Assembly (NCBI GenBank): GCA_018671515.1
Contig: JABHHN010000079.1
Coordinates: forward strand, 1 to 43,366
Direction: 5' to 3'
Length of the DNA: 43,366 bases
Source of the DNA: an archaeon
GTDB lineage: Archaea > Nanobdellota > Nanobdellia > Woesearchaeales > GW2011-AR15
Position numbers and translations under genes: made by a program. The notes under the pieces were generated by a model. It was not told the origin of the DNA. It was given only the letters and a program-made list of their open reading frames with translations, and did no database searches. This document shows positions 6,538 through 42,333 of this stretch, one piece after another. Numbering within the stretch: the first letter of the stretch is position 1; every line of letters starts with the position of its first letter.

Positions 6538-6636
6538 TTTCTCATCGTTTTTTAACAATTATAATTTAATTCAACACATATAACAAATATTATATAGTAA
6601 ATTTATTTACGAAATATACATACTTAGGTGGTAATC

Positions 6637-8790
6637 ATGATAAAAGTCAATTTTAATGTCAATAATGTAAAATTAGGTATAGTTAATTTAAAAAATCTTA
6701 AAGAAAAAAAATCAAATAAATCAATTGAAGATTTTGAAAAAGATATATTTAAAGAAATAAAATCTAAGTATAGTTTAGATACTCTAGGTGAAAATGAAAT
6801 AATCAAATCATTTAGAGAATTATATTGGTCTTTTTCCATGGACCCAACAAAAAACAGAATTTCATCCGAAGCACTTCTAAGAAGAATACTTAAAGGTAAT
6901 AATATGTGGAGAATAAATAACATTGTTGATTCTCTAAATATGATATCTGCTAAATCATTATTACCAATGGGATATATTGATCATTCTACTTTTAAAGGAG
7001 AAATCACAATAAGAACCACAAATAAAGATGAAGAATTTATAAAAATAGGTGGAAAAATAAAAAAATGCAAAGGAACAGAAATTTGTGTAAGTGATGATGA
7101 AAAAATAATGGATTATGGATATGCAACATCTGATTCAGACCTTACAAAAGTGTCCGACAAAACAAAAGATTTGATGATATTAATATATGGAACAAAAGAT
7201 GTATCTGATGAGCATTTAAAAAAATCTATGTCTGATTCAATAGAAATATTAAGTAATTTTTATGATTTTAAAATTGAAGAAGAATCAATTAAATCTGCAA
7301 AGGTTGTAAAAATAGCTCCAAAAAAAGAAGTAAAAAATACAAAAAAAGAAGAAAAAAAAGATACATTAGGCATGACTGCTAAAAAAGATGAAAATTTTAG
7401 TGAATGGTACACACAAGTAATCCAAAAATCTAAAATGGCAGATTACTCTTCAGTTTCGGGATGTATTGTCTACAGACCTTATTCTTATGAAGTATGGGAA
7501 GAAATTCAAGATTTTTTTAATAAAAAAATCAAAAAATCAGGTGTAAAAAATGCTTATTTCCCTGTGCTTATTCCTGAAAGTCTTCTTAATAAAGAAGCGG
7601 CACATGTAGAAGGATTTGCTCCTGAAGTAGCATGGGTAACTCATGGTGGAAATACTAAATTAGGTGAAAGACTAGCAGTTAGACCTACAAGTGAGACTAT
7701 CATGTATGATTCATATTCAAAATGGATAAGATCACACAATGACCTACCTTTAAGACTAAATCAATGGAATAGTGTAGTCAGATGGGAATTCAAACATGCA
7801 ACTCCATTTTTACGGGGAAGAGAATTTTTATGGCAAGAAGGACATACTGTTTTTGAAACCAAAAATGAGGCAGAAGATGAAGTTTTTGAAATCTCTGAAT
7901 ACTATTCAAAAATATATGAAGAATTATTAGCAGTTCCGGTTATCCAAGGTAAAAAAACTGAAAGTGAAAAATTTGCAGGTGCAGAATATTCAGTTTCATG
8001 TGAAACATTTTTACCTCTTGGAAAAGCAGTTCAAGGATGCACATCGCATCTATTAGGACAAAATTTTGCAAAAGCATTTGACATATCTTTTTTAGACAAA
8101 AATGGAAAAAAACAATATCCTTGGCAAAATTCATGGGGATACTCAACTAGATCATTAGGAATAATGATAATAACCCATGGTGATGATAAAGGATTAGTAA
8201 TGCCTCCAAAAGTAGCACCTATTCAAGTTGTAATAGTTCCTATCTTATTTGATAAAACCAAGAAAAAAGTCCTAAAAGAAGCAAATAACATCAAAAAGAA
8301 ACTAGATGATTTCAAAATAAAACTAGATGATAGGACTGATTATACTCCAGGTTGGAAATATAATGAATGGGAATTAAAAGGTGTCCCTATAAGAATTGAA
8401 TTTGGTCCAAGAGATTTAGAAAATAACCAGGCAATGCTTGTCAGGCGTGATACTGGAGACAAAAAGGCAGTGAAATTAAATGATATAGAGAAAGAAGTAA
8501 AAAAAATGCTTGATAAAATCCAGAAAAATCTATATGAAACAGCCCAAAAAAGGATAGAAAACAGTATAGAAAAAGTTAAAAACTGGGATGAATTCAAAAC
8601 TGCAACAAGCCAAAAGAAATGGATCAAAGCAATGCATTGTGGCGACGCTAAATGCGAAAAAAAGATCAAAGACGAAACAAATGGTGTAAAGACCAATTGC
8701 ATTCCTTTTGACCAACCTAAAAAATTAGGAAAATGTGTTAAATGTGGTAAAGATGGTAAATATGAAATTTTATTTGCAAAAAGCTATTAA
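6637..8790 (+). CDS. proS: Prolyl-tRNA synthetase with N-terminal B3/4 domain fusion
   Basis: The 717-residue protein joins two parts. Residues about 50-207 look like a tRNA-synthetase B3/4 domain (SFRELYWSFSMDPTKNRISS and MGYIDHSTFKGEITIRTT), the fold that edits mischarged tRNA in PheRS beta and in stand-alone deacylases. A Lys-rich linker (about 226-244) leads to a complete archaeal/eukaryal-type ProRS: the catalytic class II core from about 250, motif 2 region VRWEFKHATPFLRGREFLWQ, an anticodon-binding domain, and a Cys-rich C-terminal domain with MHCGDAKC and CVKCGK, ending in KSY. Archaeal ProRS is usually about 480 residues, so the N-terminal 235 are extra. ATG 6637 follows AGGTGG (6626-6631) by 5 nt; GTG 6628 is inside that motif. 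Confidence 0.94.
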   Translation: MIKVNFNVNNVKLGIVNLKNLKEKKSNKSIEDFEKDIFKEIKSKYSLDTLGENEIIKSFRELYWSFSMDPTKNRISSEALLRRILKGNNMWRINNIVDSLNMISAKSLLPMGYIDHSTFKGEITIRTTNKDEEFIKIGGKIKKCKGTEICVSDDEKIMDYGYATSDSDLTKVSDKTKDLMILIYGTKDVSDEHLKKSMSDSIEILSNFYDFKIEEESIKSAKVVKIAPKKEVKNTKKEEKKDTLGMTAKKDENFSEWYTQVIQKSKMADYSSVSGCIVYRPYSYEVWEEIQDFFNKKIKKSGVKNAYFPVLIPESLLNKEAAHVEGFAPEVAWVTHGGNTKLGERLAVRPTSETIMYDSYSKWIRSHNDLPLRLNQWNSVVRWEFKHATPFLRGREFLWQEGHTVFETKNEAEDEVFEISEYYSKIYEELLAVPVIQGKKTESEKFAGAEYSVSCETFLPLGKAVQGCTSHLLGQNFAKAFDISFLDKNGKKQYPWQNSWGYSTRSLGIMIITHGDDKGLVMPPKVAPIQVVIVPILFDKTKKKVLKEANNIKKKLDDFKIKLDDRTDYTPGWKYNEWELKGVPIRIEFGPRDLENNQAMLVRRDTGDKKAVKLNDIEKEVKKMLDKIQKNLYETAQKRIENSIEKVKNWDEFKTATSQKKWIKAMHCGDAKCEKKIKDETNGVKTNCIPFDQPKKLGKCVKCGKDGKYEILFAKSY

Positions 8791-8911: not shown

Positions 8912-8937
8912 AAAAGCAGATTATATCTGCTTTTTTC
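8912..8937 (+). terminator. Hairpin with T-tract after proS
   Basis: Arms AAGCAGA/TCTGCTT enclose a TTATA loop, and the downstream arm runs into a T-tract. This resembles an intrinsic terminator for proS transcription, although archaeal termination depends mainly on the T-run. It lies 120 nt past the proS stop. Confidence 0.45.
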
Positions 8938-9040: not shown

Positions 9041-9094
9041 ATGAAAACAGAAAAACTTGGTGGTTGTATTCCTTGTGAGGAATCAACTAAATAA
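9041..9094 (+). CDS. 17-codon upstream ORF overlapping the proB start
   Basis: The peptide MKTEKLGGCIPCEESTK has the best ribosome-binding site in this region: GGAGGT at 9026-9031, 9 nt before ATG 9041. It is in a different frame from proB, overlaps the proB start region, and stops at TAA 9092-9094. proB itself has no SD. Ribosomes finishing this ORF could reinitiate at proB, or a frameshift could join the two. It contains CxxC (CIPC) and one proline codon. No homologue recognised. Confidence 0.45.
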   Translation: MKTEKLGGCIPCEESTK

Positions 9095-9860
9095 AGCAAA
9101 AAGAATAATTATCAAATTAGGGACAAGTACTATTCTAAAAGAAAATGGTATATTTAATTATGAATTAATAAATGGATTTATTAAAGAAATAATTAAATTA
9201 AAAGCGCAAGGAAAGGAAATTGTAATTGTTTCTAGTGGTGCAGTAGGATTAGGCAATAATCACTTAACATGGCAAAAAAGTGAAGATAAATTATTAAACA
9301 AATGTTCTGCATCTATTGGACAGTCAAAATTGATGTATTCATATCAAAATTCTTTTGACAAATTTAATTTATCAATTGCTCAACTACTTCTAACAAACAA
9401 AAATTTTAAAACAAATAGAAGGAAAAAAAGAATAAAAAATGTTCTAGAAAAATTATTAGAAATTGGAATAATACCTATAATAAATGAAAATGATTCAATA
9501 ACTGAAAGTGAAACTTCATTTGGTGATAATGATATTCTTGCAGGACATATATCAAATATTACAAAAGCAAATCTATTAATTATTTTATCAAATGTTGATG
9601 GAATATATAGAAATTATATAAAAAAAGATGTTATAAACTACATTTCTAAAACAGACTCTACTATCAAAAATTATGTAACTTCTAATAGGTCTTCTTTTGG
9701 AAAAGGTGGAATGATGTCAAAAATTCATGCAGCCAAGATATGTTCTCAAACAAACACTATGACTGTAATTGCAAATGGGCAAGAAAAAAATATTTTATTG
9801 AAAATTATAAATGGAAAAAATATAGGCACACTAATTAATCTGGAGGATAGTTCAAAATGA
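9075..9860 (+). CDS. proB: Glutamate 5-kinase (gamma-glutamyl kinase), short form
   Basis: First step of proline synthesis: ATP-dependent phosphorylation of glutamate to gamma-glutamyl phosphate. The amino-acid-kinase fold is clear: IIIKLGTSTIL at the N-terminus, VIVSSGAVGLG, the INENDSI loop, SFGDNDILAG, and the Lys/Gly-rich FGKGGMMSKIHAA. At about 261 residues it lacks the C-terminal PUA domain of E. coli ProB, as many short forms do. The start is uncertain: GTG 9075 gives MRNQLNKAKRIIIKLG, and TTG 9057 is possible; neither has an SD. An overlapping 17-codon ORF with a strong SD suggests translational coupling. The last codons overlap proA by 4 nt (ATGA). Confidence 0.92.
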   Translation: MRNQLNKAKRIIIKLGTSTILKENGIFNYELINGFIKEIIKLKAQGKEIVIVSSGAVGLGNNHLTWQKSEDKLLNKCSASIGQSKLMYSYQNSFDKFNLSIAQLLLTNKNFKTNRRKKRIKNVLEKLLEIGIIPIINENDSITESETSFGDNDILAGHISNITKANLLIILSNVDGIYRNYIKKDVINYISKTDSTIKNYVTSNRSSFGKGGMMSKIHAAKICSQTNTMTVIANGQEKNILLKIINGKNIGTLINLEDSSK

Positions 9861-11098
9861 AATTAAGAAACAAAAATATAATACAAATTGCAAAAGATGC
9901 AAAAAAAACATCTGTTGAATTAAATAAATTATCAACTAAAGACAAAAATAAAATTTTGTTAAACATAATTAAATCATTAGATAAAAATAGAAATGAAATT
10001 TTAGAAGCTAACAAAATTGATGTTGATAATGCAAAAAATAATATTAAGATATCTCTTCTAGATAGATTGATCCTAAATAATCAAAGAATTGATAATATGA
10101 TTGATTCATTAAAAATCTTAATTGATTTAAAAGACCATATAGGAGAAATAATTGATGAAAAGACATTAAAAAATGGACTAAAATTAATCAAAAAAAGAGT
10201 TCCATTTGGTGTCATTGGTGTAATTTATGAATCAAGACCTAATGTTACAATAGATGTTGCTAGTATCTGTCTAAAAAGTTCATCTTCTGTAATTTTAAAA
10301 GGTGGAAGTGAGGCAATAAACACCAACAAAATACTTGTTAAATTACTAAATGATTCATGCCAAATAAAGAATGCTTTTCAACTTATTGAGTCAACAGATA
10401 GGTCAATTACAAATGAAATATTAAAATTAAACAACTATATTGATTTAATTATTCCAAGAGGTGGAAAAAATCTCATTAATTTTGTAAGAGATAATTCTAA
10501 AGTTCCAATAATTGAGACAGGTACTGGAAATTGTCATATATTCCTTGATGAAAAATATGATATAAAAAAAGCAATTAAAATTATCATTAATGCAAAAACT
10601 CAAAGACCTAGTGTTTGTAATGCTGTTGAAAAATTATTAATTCATGAAAATACTTTTGGTAATAACATAAAATCCATAATTAATGAATTAAAAAAGAAAA
10701 ATGTTGAAATCAGAGGATGCAATAAGATAAATGAAATTGAAAAATGTAAAATTGCAGATGAAACTGATTGGCATACAGAATATTTAGATTTGATCATGGG
10801 AATTAAAATTGTTAAAAATGTTAATGAAGCAATTTCACATATCAATAAATATGGAACTAAACATAGTGAAGCTATTCTTAGTTATAATAATGAAAATATT
10901 GACAAATTTAATAATGAAGTAGATGCTTCCACTGTGTATACTAATGCCTCAACTAGGTTTACTGATGGGTATGAATTTGGAATGGGTGCAGAGATTGGAA
11001 TAAGTACTCAAAAATTGCATGCTAGAGGACCAATGGGACTTGAAGCACTTAGTACATACAAATATTTAATAACAGGAAATGGTCATATAAGAAAATAG
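9857..11098 (+). CDS. proA: Gamma-glutamyl phosphate reductase
   Basis: This 413-residue aldehyde-dehydrogenase-fold enzyme reduces gamma-glutamyl phosphate with NADPH to glutamate semialdehyde, which cyclises to pyrroline-5-carboxylate. Visible motifs include VPFGVIGVIYESRPNVT (115-131), ILKGGSEA, the IPRGG turn and the catalytic cysteine C254 in QRPSVCNAVE. C-terminal FGMGAEIGISTQKLHARGPMG is the typical ProA ending. ATG 9857 overlaps the proB stop; GGAGG at 9842-9846 gives an SD. proA is followed 15 nt later by proC. ProBA is uncommon in archaea, so a bacterial origin is likely (inference). Confidence 0.97.
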   Translation: MKLRNKNIIQIAKDAKKTSVELNKLSTKDKNKILLNIIKSLDKNRNEILEANKIDVDNAKNNIKISLLDRLILNNQRIDNMIDSLKILIDLKDHIGEIIDEKTLKNGLKLIKKRVPFGVIGVIYESRPNVTIDVASICLKSSSSVILKGGSEAINTNKILVKLLNDSCQIKNAFQLIESTDRSITNEILKLNNYIDLIIPRGGKNLINFVRDNSKVPIIETGTGNCHIFLDEKYDIKKAIKIIINAKTQRPSVCNAVEKLLIHENTFGNNIKSIINELKKKNVEIRGCNKINEIEKCKIADETDWHTEYLDLIMGIKIVKNVNEAISHINKYGTKHSEAILSYNNENIDKFNNEVDASTVYTNASTRFTDGYEFGMGAEIGISTQKLHARGPMGLEALSTYKYLITGNGHIRK

Positions 11099-11113
11099 AT
11101 TTAGGTGATTTTA

Positions 11114-11920
11114 ATGAATGAAGATAAAATTGGTTTCATAGGAGCGGGAAGTTTAGCTGAGTGCTTAATTAGTGCACTTGTCAAAAAAGATTATAATAAT
11201 ATCATTGCAAGTAGAAGGACACAAAGTGAATTAGATAGATTAAGTAAGCAATACAGGATTAAAACTACAACTGACAATATTGAAGTCTTAAATGATTCAA
11301 AATATGTAATTTTATGTGTCAAACCTGGTGATGATTTAAATGGAGTACTTGAAGAGATAAAATCATCAAAAATTGATTATTCAGAAAAAGTTTTCATAAC
11401 TATTGCAGCTACAGTTCGAAAAAAACAACTGACAAATATACTTGGACAAAATACAAAAATTGGAATTGTCATACCTACAGTTGGAAGTATATATGGAGAA
11501 GGTGTTTCAATCTATTCATCAAACAACACAGAAATAGATGATAAAATTGAAGCTATTTTTGGAGCAGGCGGATATGTACAAAAAGTTGATGAAGATAAAG
11601 TAATTCAATCTGCCCAAGGTGCATGTCTTCCAGGATGGGATAGCAGATATGTATTGAAAAACCTTGAAATGCTAAGGAAATATTTTCCAGATAATGAACT
11701 CTCAAAAAAATTTATAATAAATAATTTAAGAGGAGTTGCAAATATGCTTGAACAAAATGAAAGTGATGATTTGCAAGCACTAAAAAATTATTCTTTAAAA
11801 GTTGGAAAACCTGGAAAAAGTATTACATATCAAGGAATTGAATTGTATGAAAAAAATGGTTTCTATAAAGCAATAGAAAAATCTCATGAATTAGTCGGTG
11901 AAATCATGAAAAAATATTGA
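11114..11920 (+). CDS. proC: Pyrroline-5-carboxylate reductase-like protein
   Basis: This 268-residue protein begins with a Rossmann motif IGFIGAGSLAECLISAL, then a helical dimer domain, and sits third in proB-proA-proC. It should reduce pyrroline-5-carboxylate to proline. It is diverged: the usual SGSGPAY helix start is replaced by AQGACLPGW, and the C-terminal SPGGTT signature is replaced by GKPGKSITYQG. Operon position makes ProC the best call, but the substrate could differ within the F420-reductase/P5CR-like superfamily. ATG 11114 lies 5 nt after AGGTGA (11103-11108); GTG 11105 is part of that motif. Confidence 0.85.
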   Translation: MNEDKIGFIGAGSLAECLISALVKKDYNNIIASRRTQSELDRLSKQYRIKTTTDNIEVLNDSKYVILCVKPGDDLNGVLEEIKSSKIDYSEKVFITIAATVRKKQLTNILGQNTKIGIVIPTVGSIYGEGVSIYSSNNTEIDDKIEAIFGAGGYVQKVDEDKVIQSAQGACLPGWDSRYVLKNLEMLRKYFPDNELSKKFIINNLRGVANMLEQNESDDLQALKNYSLKVGKPGKSITYQGIELYEKNGFYKAIEKSHELVGEIMKKY

Positions 11921-41502: not shown

Positions 41503-42333
41503 TTAAATCATTTCTTTTGTTTTTTTCCAAGGGAAATTTAATTTCTCTAAAATATTGATTATTTTATTTCTCCCTTCACCATTTAATCCTTTCCAATCAA
41601 TAATTGCTAGCTCTGCAGGTTTTGTTGATCTATTTATCATCTGTTTGACCATGTCCTCATTCATTGCATCCACAAAATGTTTTGGACAAATATGAGACAT
41701 ACAAATGTCTGTAACAAACTCTACCTTATTAAAATTATGACAATAATGAGTCCCACCAAAACCAATAGCAACTTTATAATCTCGATTTAAATCCAAATCA
41801 AGTGTTTTTAATAATGTCTGAGCAACAATTTTTCCTATTTCTTTGTCAATCCATTCATTTTTTGTTGATCCAATTTCTACATAAACTACTGGTGTTTTTA
41901 GAAATGGTCCATGATGTGTAGACTCAAGTGTAATATCATATGTTGATTCCGTGTAATTTCTTTTTAAATTATTAAAATATTTTTTTAAAAATAATGGTGC
42001 ACTATAACATATTTCAGCCTCACGTCCACCCATTTCATTATTAGAATAATTACCAATAAAATGTCCGCTTAAACTTGGTTTTCCTGAAACTGCAGAATGT
42101 TTAGATATAACAACAATCAAATCAGAATCTAAATCTTTATCAAATTCCTCAAACGTGATATGTTTTTTATCAGTCAATAATAAATCAACATCATTAAATT
42201 CTGTTTGTGTATTGAATACTTGATTTCCATCAAATGATTTTGTAGTTTCCTTAAAATTTATTAATTTAAGTAAATTTTCTCTTATGTTATTAGATGCTAA
42301 ATCAGCCATACTTGAGAGAATAGATATTTTCAT
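41503..42333 (-). CDS. dtdA: D-aminoacyl-tRNA deacylase (GEK1/DTD2 type)
   Basis: A 276-residue archaeal/plant type D-aminoacyl-tRNA deacylase that recycles tRNA mischarged with D-amino acids. The conserved motifs THHGPF and GFGGTHYCHNF supply zinc ligands and active-site residues; VVISKHSAVSGKPSLSGH-like and HICPKH-like segments also match. No bacterial-type DtdA is seen. It is monocistronic and minus-strand; its start faces a long non-coding upstream region shared with the PEF-CTERM gene. Confidence 0.93.
   Translation of the reverse strand: MKISILSSMADLASNNIRENLLKLINFKETTKSFDGNQVFNTQTEFNDVDLLLTDKKHITFEEFDKDLDSDLIVVISKHSAVSGKPSLSGHFIGNYSNNEMGGREAEICYSAPLFLKKYFNNLKRNYTESTYDITLESTHHGPFLKTPVVYVEIGSTKNEWIDKEIGKIVAQTLLKTLDLDLNRDYKVAIGFGGTHYCHNFNKVEFVTDICMSHICPKHFVDAMNEDMVKQMINRSTKPAELAIIDWKGLNGEGRNKIINILEKLNFPWKKTKEMI

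Follow-up and report, generated by a model that had tools for sequence, protein, structure and literature searches.

The fusion gene and its surroundings

The window analysed here, a stretch of 43,366 nucleotides (positions 1-43,366, forward strand) of contig JABHHN010000079.1 in a woesearchaeal assembly (GCA_018671515.1), encodes a prolyl-tRNA synthetase (ProRS) that carries a B3/4 domain at its N-terminus (Table 1). The fusion is genuine and the observation is confirmed. The Pfam B3_4 match (E 2.8e-20; cut-off 29.3 bits) is followed on its C-terminal side by tRNA-synt_2b (PF00587, residues 342-511), HGTP_anticodon (PF03129, residues 530-623) and ProRS-C_1 (PF09180, residues 650-717), while the NCBIfam model of the archaeal/eukaryal-type ProRS, TIGR00408 (proS_fam_I), matched over positions 2-475 of 475, well above its cut-off of 437 bits. 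Neither the INS/YbaK domain (PF04073, tRNA_edit) nor the B1, B5 and B6/7 domains of the beta subunit of phenylalanyl-tRNA synthetase (PheRS) were detected by Pfam in the window protein. The initial annotation had assigned the first ~210 residues to B3/4 and not to INS or YbaK, and the remainder to an archaeal-type ProRS; both assignments are borne out, the homologous module covering residues ~1-215. It had also placed a D-aminoacyl-tRNA deacylase elsewhere in the window, and this gene was found (PF04414).

An alternative GTG start lies at 6628, nine bases upstream of the ATG at 6637; the latter fits better, since it is preceded by GGTGG. A full-length protein search of the window genome (120 contigs, ~90% complete) found no second ProRS. 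Proline biosynthesis genes lie downstream of the fusion; proB, proC and proA also adjoin ProRS in the related genome G001, and a ProC gene adjoins the YbaK-ProRS genes of G007 and G009, as judged by reading of open reading frames (ORFs).

Table 1. Positions of features in the window and of editing-type domains in related genes (for other contigs, locus:positions; genomes in brackets)
Feature	Position	Strand	Basis or remark
GGTGG, likely ribosome-binding site	6627..6631	+	sequence before ATG 6637
B3/4-ProRS fusion gene, 717 aa, ATG start	6637..8790	+	open frame without stop; Pfam, TIGR00408
Full B3/4 module, residues 1-215	6637..7281	+	end-to-end homology to stand-alone B3/4 proteins (hmmsearch, alignment)
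Pfam B3_4 match, residues 60-188	6814..7200	+	PF03483, 73 bits; also genome search
Codons D98 to N101	6928..6939	+	D98/N101 = E. coli PheT D251/N254 (T. thermophilus Asn-beta-250); alignment, roles from PMC3275996
Codons G112 to D115	6970..6981	+	G112 = His265/His-beta-261 of bacterial PheRS, D115 = D268; alignment, PMC3275996
Variable lysine-rich linker, residues ~216-247	7282..7377	+	length and sequence differ across all three fusions
Archaeal-type ProRS, residues 248-717	7378..8787	+	TIGR00408 (620 bits), PF00587, PF03129, PF09180
Terminator-like hairpin 3' of ProRS	8912..8934	+	weak: 1 found, 0.9 expected in shuffles
Proline biosynthesis cluster: proB, proA, ProC-like gene	9057..11920	+	downstream of ProRS; ProC-like gene under proC cut-off
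D-aminoacyl-tRNA deacylase	41503..42333	-	PF04414, 218 bits
Free-standing ProRS-type B3/4 (G228)	L267:6564-7256		candidate trans-editing factor
Archaeal-type PheT, internal B3/4 kept, second bacterial-like B3/4 C-terminal	L127:173-2461, L136:1683-3986, L142:1190-3466, L152:1466-3868		L127, window genome
TrpRS with degenerate N-terminal B3/4-like domain	L128:668-2485		24 bits, Asn lost; window genome
MetRS, B3/4 between anticodon-binding and tRNA_bind domains	L141:2827-5562, L148:1059-3692, L206:720-3335, L212:2690-5317, L214:1463-4657		usual layout
LysRS-I with N-terminal B3/4 (G162, G341)	L201:2797-5196, L202:1137-3500
LysRS-I with C-terminal B3/4 (G156; G422)	L204:2877-5255, L268:2618-4930		G422 outside the order
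LysRS-II with C-terminal B3/4 (G050, G227)	L200:3391-5568, L203:1299-3431
Bacterial-type AspRS with C-terminal YbaK	L274:2345-4633 (G005), L241, L243, L248
AsnRS with N-terminal YbaK	L273:667-2484 (G007)
TyrRS with two N-terminal editing-type domains	L272:2232-4262 (G009)		AlaX-like tRNA_SAD and YbaK

Recurrence and range of the fusion

A full-length search recovered the same fusion, end to end, in two further genera of the same family, G003 (66% identity) and G004 (62% identity), each as a single frame whose alignment starts at residue 2 or 4 and extends to 717; the domain order is thus shared with other DPANN genomes. An artefact, either a chimeric contig or a mis-called start uniting two genes, might be suspected in a metagenome-style assembly of 120 contigs, but is hardly credible. 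The frame runs on without a stop in three independent genomes at these full-length identities, ProRS is flanked by an NAD kinase-like and an RtcA-like gene both in the window and in G003 (in G003 read from the ORFs), and the module and the adjacent genes have the same GC3 (0.13). The fusion is therefore not peculiar to one assembly, and the three genomes and the common neighbours rule out an assembly join. The suggestion that the domain was newly recruited has to be qualified: within the family the fusion is old enough to span three genera with domains 53-57% identical, and the domain has apparently since been lost or exchanged.

ProRS matches were obtained in 309 of the 353 genomes of the order, and only three of the matches listed start from the first residues, although a highly divergent fusion might be hidden in this score-sorted set. 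The fusion is rare: its carriers amount to 3 of the 10 genomes of the family, with none outside it among the matches listed. In 371 genomes sampled across the phylum, a module profile search added no ProRS fusion to these; the long frames among its matches were MetRS, LysRS, PheRS or TrpRS (by Pfam or ORF reading). Only unfused ProRS was seen among the best 80 of 591 ProRS matches in a contig scan, a ranking by overall similarity that could miss a distant fusion and from which very near relatives were left out. No relative of the ProRS-type module was detected in the viral contigs scanned. Long frames at the ProRS matches of G185, G209, G271 and G187 turned out to be plain ProRS with an open frame ahead (G044 and G181 aside).

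Relatives and origin of the B3/4 module

The HMM of the archaeal module aligned over ~228 positions in both stand-alone proteins and fused domains, so the fusion also takes in ~60 residues ahead of the part that the Pfam model covers. A profile of ProRS-type and stand-alone sequences matched CtdA (PDB 9f7e; E 8e-28, residues ~54-212), another B3/4 protein (9mkl; E 1e-28), E. coli PheRS (3pco; E 5e-10) and T. thermophilus PheRS beta (E 9e-6), in agreement with the kinship to PheRS B3/4 proposed earlier for the N-terminal region. The nearest non-fusion relative is a free-standing B3/4 protein of 230 aa in G228, whose family is a different one; it scores 174 bits, against 116 for the next match, and in the B3/4 tree it groups with the three ProRS-fused domains (support 100/95); the latter form a branch separate from the bacterial CtdA-like proteins sampled. 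Judged by this homology, the ProRS module corresponds to an entire stand-alone B3/4 protein and derives from a stand-alone B3/4 gene. The G228 protein is a rare free-standing ProRS-type B3/4 and a candidate trans-editing factor for tRNA-Pro.

Between the three fusions, identity is 53-57% in the module and 65-73% in the ProRS core. By NG86, dN is 0.32-0.41 and dS is saturated or no lower than 2.3 (YN00 gives 1.6 for one pair). These estimates speak for purifying selection on the module, a sign of constraint and not of activity.

PheRS beta shares with the module the Pfam family, the Asn and Asp and, in archaeal PheRS, Gly in place of His261. However, the window domain is N-terminal on a different synthetase, has no B1, B5 and B6/7 domains around it, and includes the ~60 residues with which the stand-alone proteins begin. 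CtdA, the canavanyl-tRNA-Arg deacylase, matches most of the module and is similar in length and layout, but it is free-standing and acts on tRNA-Arg, and the window domain belongs to another branch (99/100). The ProXp-ala-ProRS of protists (PMC11295145) and the YbaK-ProRS of G007, G009 and G245 likewise have an N-terminal editing domain on an INS-less ProRS, whereas their domain is of the unrelated YbaK/ProX fold (PF04073). Bacterial ProRS with INS also unites ProRS and a cis-editing domain (for the window B3/4, cis-editing is predicted); there, INS is an internal insertion of the PF04073 type, in contrast to the TIGR00408 core with N-terminal B3/4 of the window protein. Precedents in archaea or CPR bacteria for borrowing between synthetases, with different domains, appear in passages of two papers: SepRS that has a ThrRS editing domain at its N-terminus (PMC8762117), and TyrRS and LysRS with the PheRS B2 domain (PMC5370408); these passages describe no B3/4 fusion. 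Known already are PheRS B3/4, CtdA, the protist ProXp-ala-ProRS, the ThrRS editing domain on SepRS, and PheRS B2 on TyrRS and LysRS. No description of B3/4 on ProRS, MetRS or LysRS was found in the open-access PMC literature, which is weak evidence, as the slash of 'B3/4' is unsearchable.

Residues of the editing site

In the sequence alignment, D251, N254, H265 and D268 of E. coli PheT correspond to D98, N101, G112 and D115 of the window protein. Asn250 and His261 of T. thermophilus PheRS are the equivalents of N254 and H265 (PMC3275996); hence, of the PheRS editing residues, Asn250 is kept (N101), His261 is replaced by G112, and Glu334 is not kept. In archaeal PheRS, Gly also replaces His261 and Tyr is still edited, the triad being credited with a part in positioning more than in catalysis (PMC3275996). 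Glu334 reads the Tyr hydroxyl (PMC3275996), so its absence fits a substrate other than Tyr. The Asn, both flanking Asp and the surrounding core motifs are invariant in the ProRS copies of the three genera. A single-sequence AlphaFold model of residues 1-239 had a pLDDT of 34 and was discarded.

Domain exchange at the N-terminus of ProRS

Within the family, the N-terminus of ProRS is bare, B3/4 or YbaK. YbaK-ProRS is encoded in G007 and G009 (PF04073, 104 and 90 bits), so that such fusions, placed in eukaryotes by the initial annotation, are present in this archaeal family too; one more is found in G245, from another family. ProRS is unfused in G001, G002, G005 and G008, and the G006 gene, in which an N-terminal domain is absent, is cut by a contig end. 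In the tree of ProRS cores the family forms one clade (99/91), with unfused G002 as sister to the window protein (97/86), both nested in a group that also includes fused G003 (98/98). Constraining the three fused cores together was not rejected (p-AU 0.099). The core phylogeny would thus be compatible both with one gain followed by losses and with later exchange.

The best PDB match of a free-standing protein of G002 is ProXp-ala (5vxb, E 4e-22); the usual targets of ProXp-ala are Ala- and Cys-tRNA-Pro. The YbaK-type protein of the window genome (G000) belongs to a different subfamily (best matches 1wdv and 2cx5), and G004 has only a YbaK fragment at a contig edge, which on inspection resembles this non-ProXp-ala protein. 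ProXp-ala was not found in G000 or G003, nor was any YbaK-type protein found in the latter. These few genomes, three of them incomplete, give only a hint that the fused module may do the job of ProXp-ala. A rule by which a genome has either B3/4-ProRS or ProXp-ala and never both was dropped, because in several genomes of the family both seem to be missing (neither was apparent in G001, G005, G006 and G008).

Predicted function

Archaeal-type ProRS is not known to carry INS. Misactivation of Ala and Cys by ProRS is reported in passages of PMC6344894 and PMC11295145. The core of the fusion would charge tRNA-Pro, and without INS errors such as Ala-tRNA-Pro would arise; by virtue of the flexible lysine-rich linker, the N-terminal B3/4 module could gain access to the 3' CCA end of a mischarged tRNA and would then hydrolyse the ester. 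The fusion is probably a ProRS with cis proofreading of mischarged tRNA-Pro, because the CtdA and PheRS beta families that the module matches both hydrolyse mischarged tRNA (PMC10018355; PMC3275996). Moreover, cis editing is reported for an engineered TyrRS that had received the editing module of an archaeal PheRS (PMC3275996). A proofreading role is also plausible from domain relatedness, the kept Asn, purifying selection, the exchange with YbaK and the presence of ProXp-ala in the nearest unfused relative. Taken as a whole, the earlier interpretation is partly supported.

If the module edits, Ala would be the most likely substrate and our leading guess, though a tentative one; next would come a non-protein analogue of proline, for which the case is somewhat more doubtful, and then Cys, which is unlikely. 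This order is a matter of judgement. Known B3/4 substrates are Tyr, m-Tyr and canavanine, all larger than Ala, which counts against Ala editing; the missing Tyr-recognising Glu334 likewise counts against proofreading.

Rather than hydrolysing, the module might have become an appendage that binds or positions tRNA and raises the affinity of ProRS for it. B3/4 is joined to many synthetases, including TrpRS, for which no editing is known, and the TrpRS copies scanned do not reach the Pfam threshold and no longer have the conserved Asn, so at least some fused copies may have a role other than hydrolysis. In addition, PheRS B2, an RNA-binding fold, is reported on TyrRS and LysRS of CPR bacteria in passages of PMC5370408. 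Such an appendage is nevertheless quite unlikely in the case of ProRS, where the Asn, both Asp and the core motifs show no variation and where the module swaps with the YbaK deacylase fold and not with an RNA-binding one. Overlapping with proofreading is the reading of the module as a CtdA-like detoxifier of one specific non-protein amino acid, such as a proline analogue (azetidine-2-carboxylate, hydroxyproline) or a D-amino acid. CtdA, the best characterised stand-alone relative, is specific for canavanyl-tRNA-Arg (PMC10018355), the patchy distribution of the fusion in the family suits a conditional need, and proline biosynthesis genes adjoin ProRS. However, no analogue gene cluster was seen, and related genomes put YbaK at the same position of ProRS or keep ProXp-ala, so that a dedicated detoxifier appears rather unlikely and general proofreading in cis is the reading that we prefer.

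Editing-type domains on other synthetases

In related archaea the module is also joined to five or more further types of synthetase, a point that the initial annotation overlooked. The window genome has three other B3/4 genes, coding for a stand-alone protein (L001), PheT (L127) and TrpRS (L128); TrpRS with a degenerate B3/4 is also present in six relatives (G002, G003, G004, G007, G008 and G009). MetRS with B3/4 was found in ~16 genomes of the order (including G007, G009, G036, G091 and G151), seven of the fusions, from order or class relatives, being checked by Pfam and the rest identified by N-terminal sequence and HMM match. In the MetRS of G485 the domain is C-terminal and tRNA_bind is absent.

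In the B3/4 tree, one group (99/100) unites MetRS (one branch), PheRS (one branch), ProRS, two LysRS copies and two bacterial proteins, while the domains of N-terminal LysRS-I and of the G050 LysRS-II take separate positions among archaeal stand-alone proteins; at least three captures are therefore needed. We tentatively propose that B3/4 in this DPANN order may be a proofreading cassette that can be moved between synthetases, with at least three captures and attachment to at least six synthetase types (ProRS, MetRS, LysRS-I, LysRS-II, PheRS beta and TrpRS), some of which are not known to edit post-transfer, with a parallel set of YbaK fusions; fidelity would then be rebuilt for each synthetase by domain exchange and not through canonical editing sites.

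Editing domains are usually taught as fixed to particular synthetases, B3/4 to PheRS and YbaK/INS to ProRS, whereas here, in a single archaeal family, the same site of ProRS is vacant or holds B3/4 or YbaK, and relatives carry B3/4 on MetRS, LysRS and others. If active, these domains would be natural experiments on whether substrate choice lies with the editing domain or with the synthetase carrying it, and would give insight into translation accuracy in small-genome archaea. Post-transfer editing might also come to light in MetRS, LysRS or TrpRS, for which it has yet to be established.

YbaK was found on AspRS, AsnRS and TyrRS (Table 1), and frames of ~750 aa with YbaK, of which a subset was opened, recur widely across the order.
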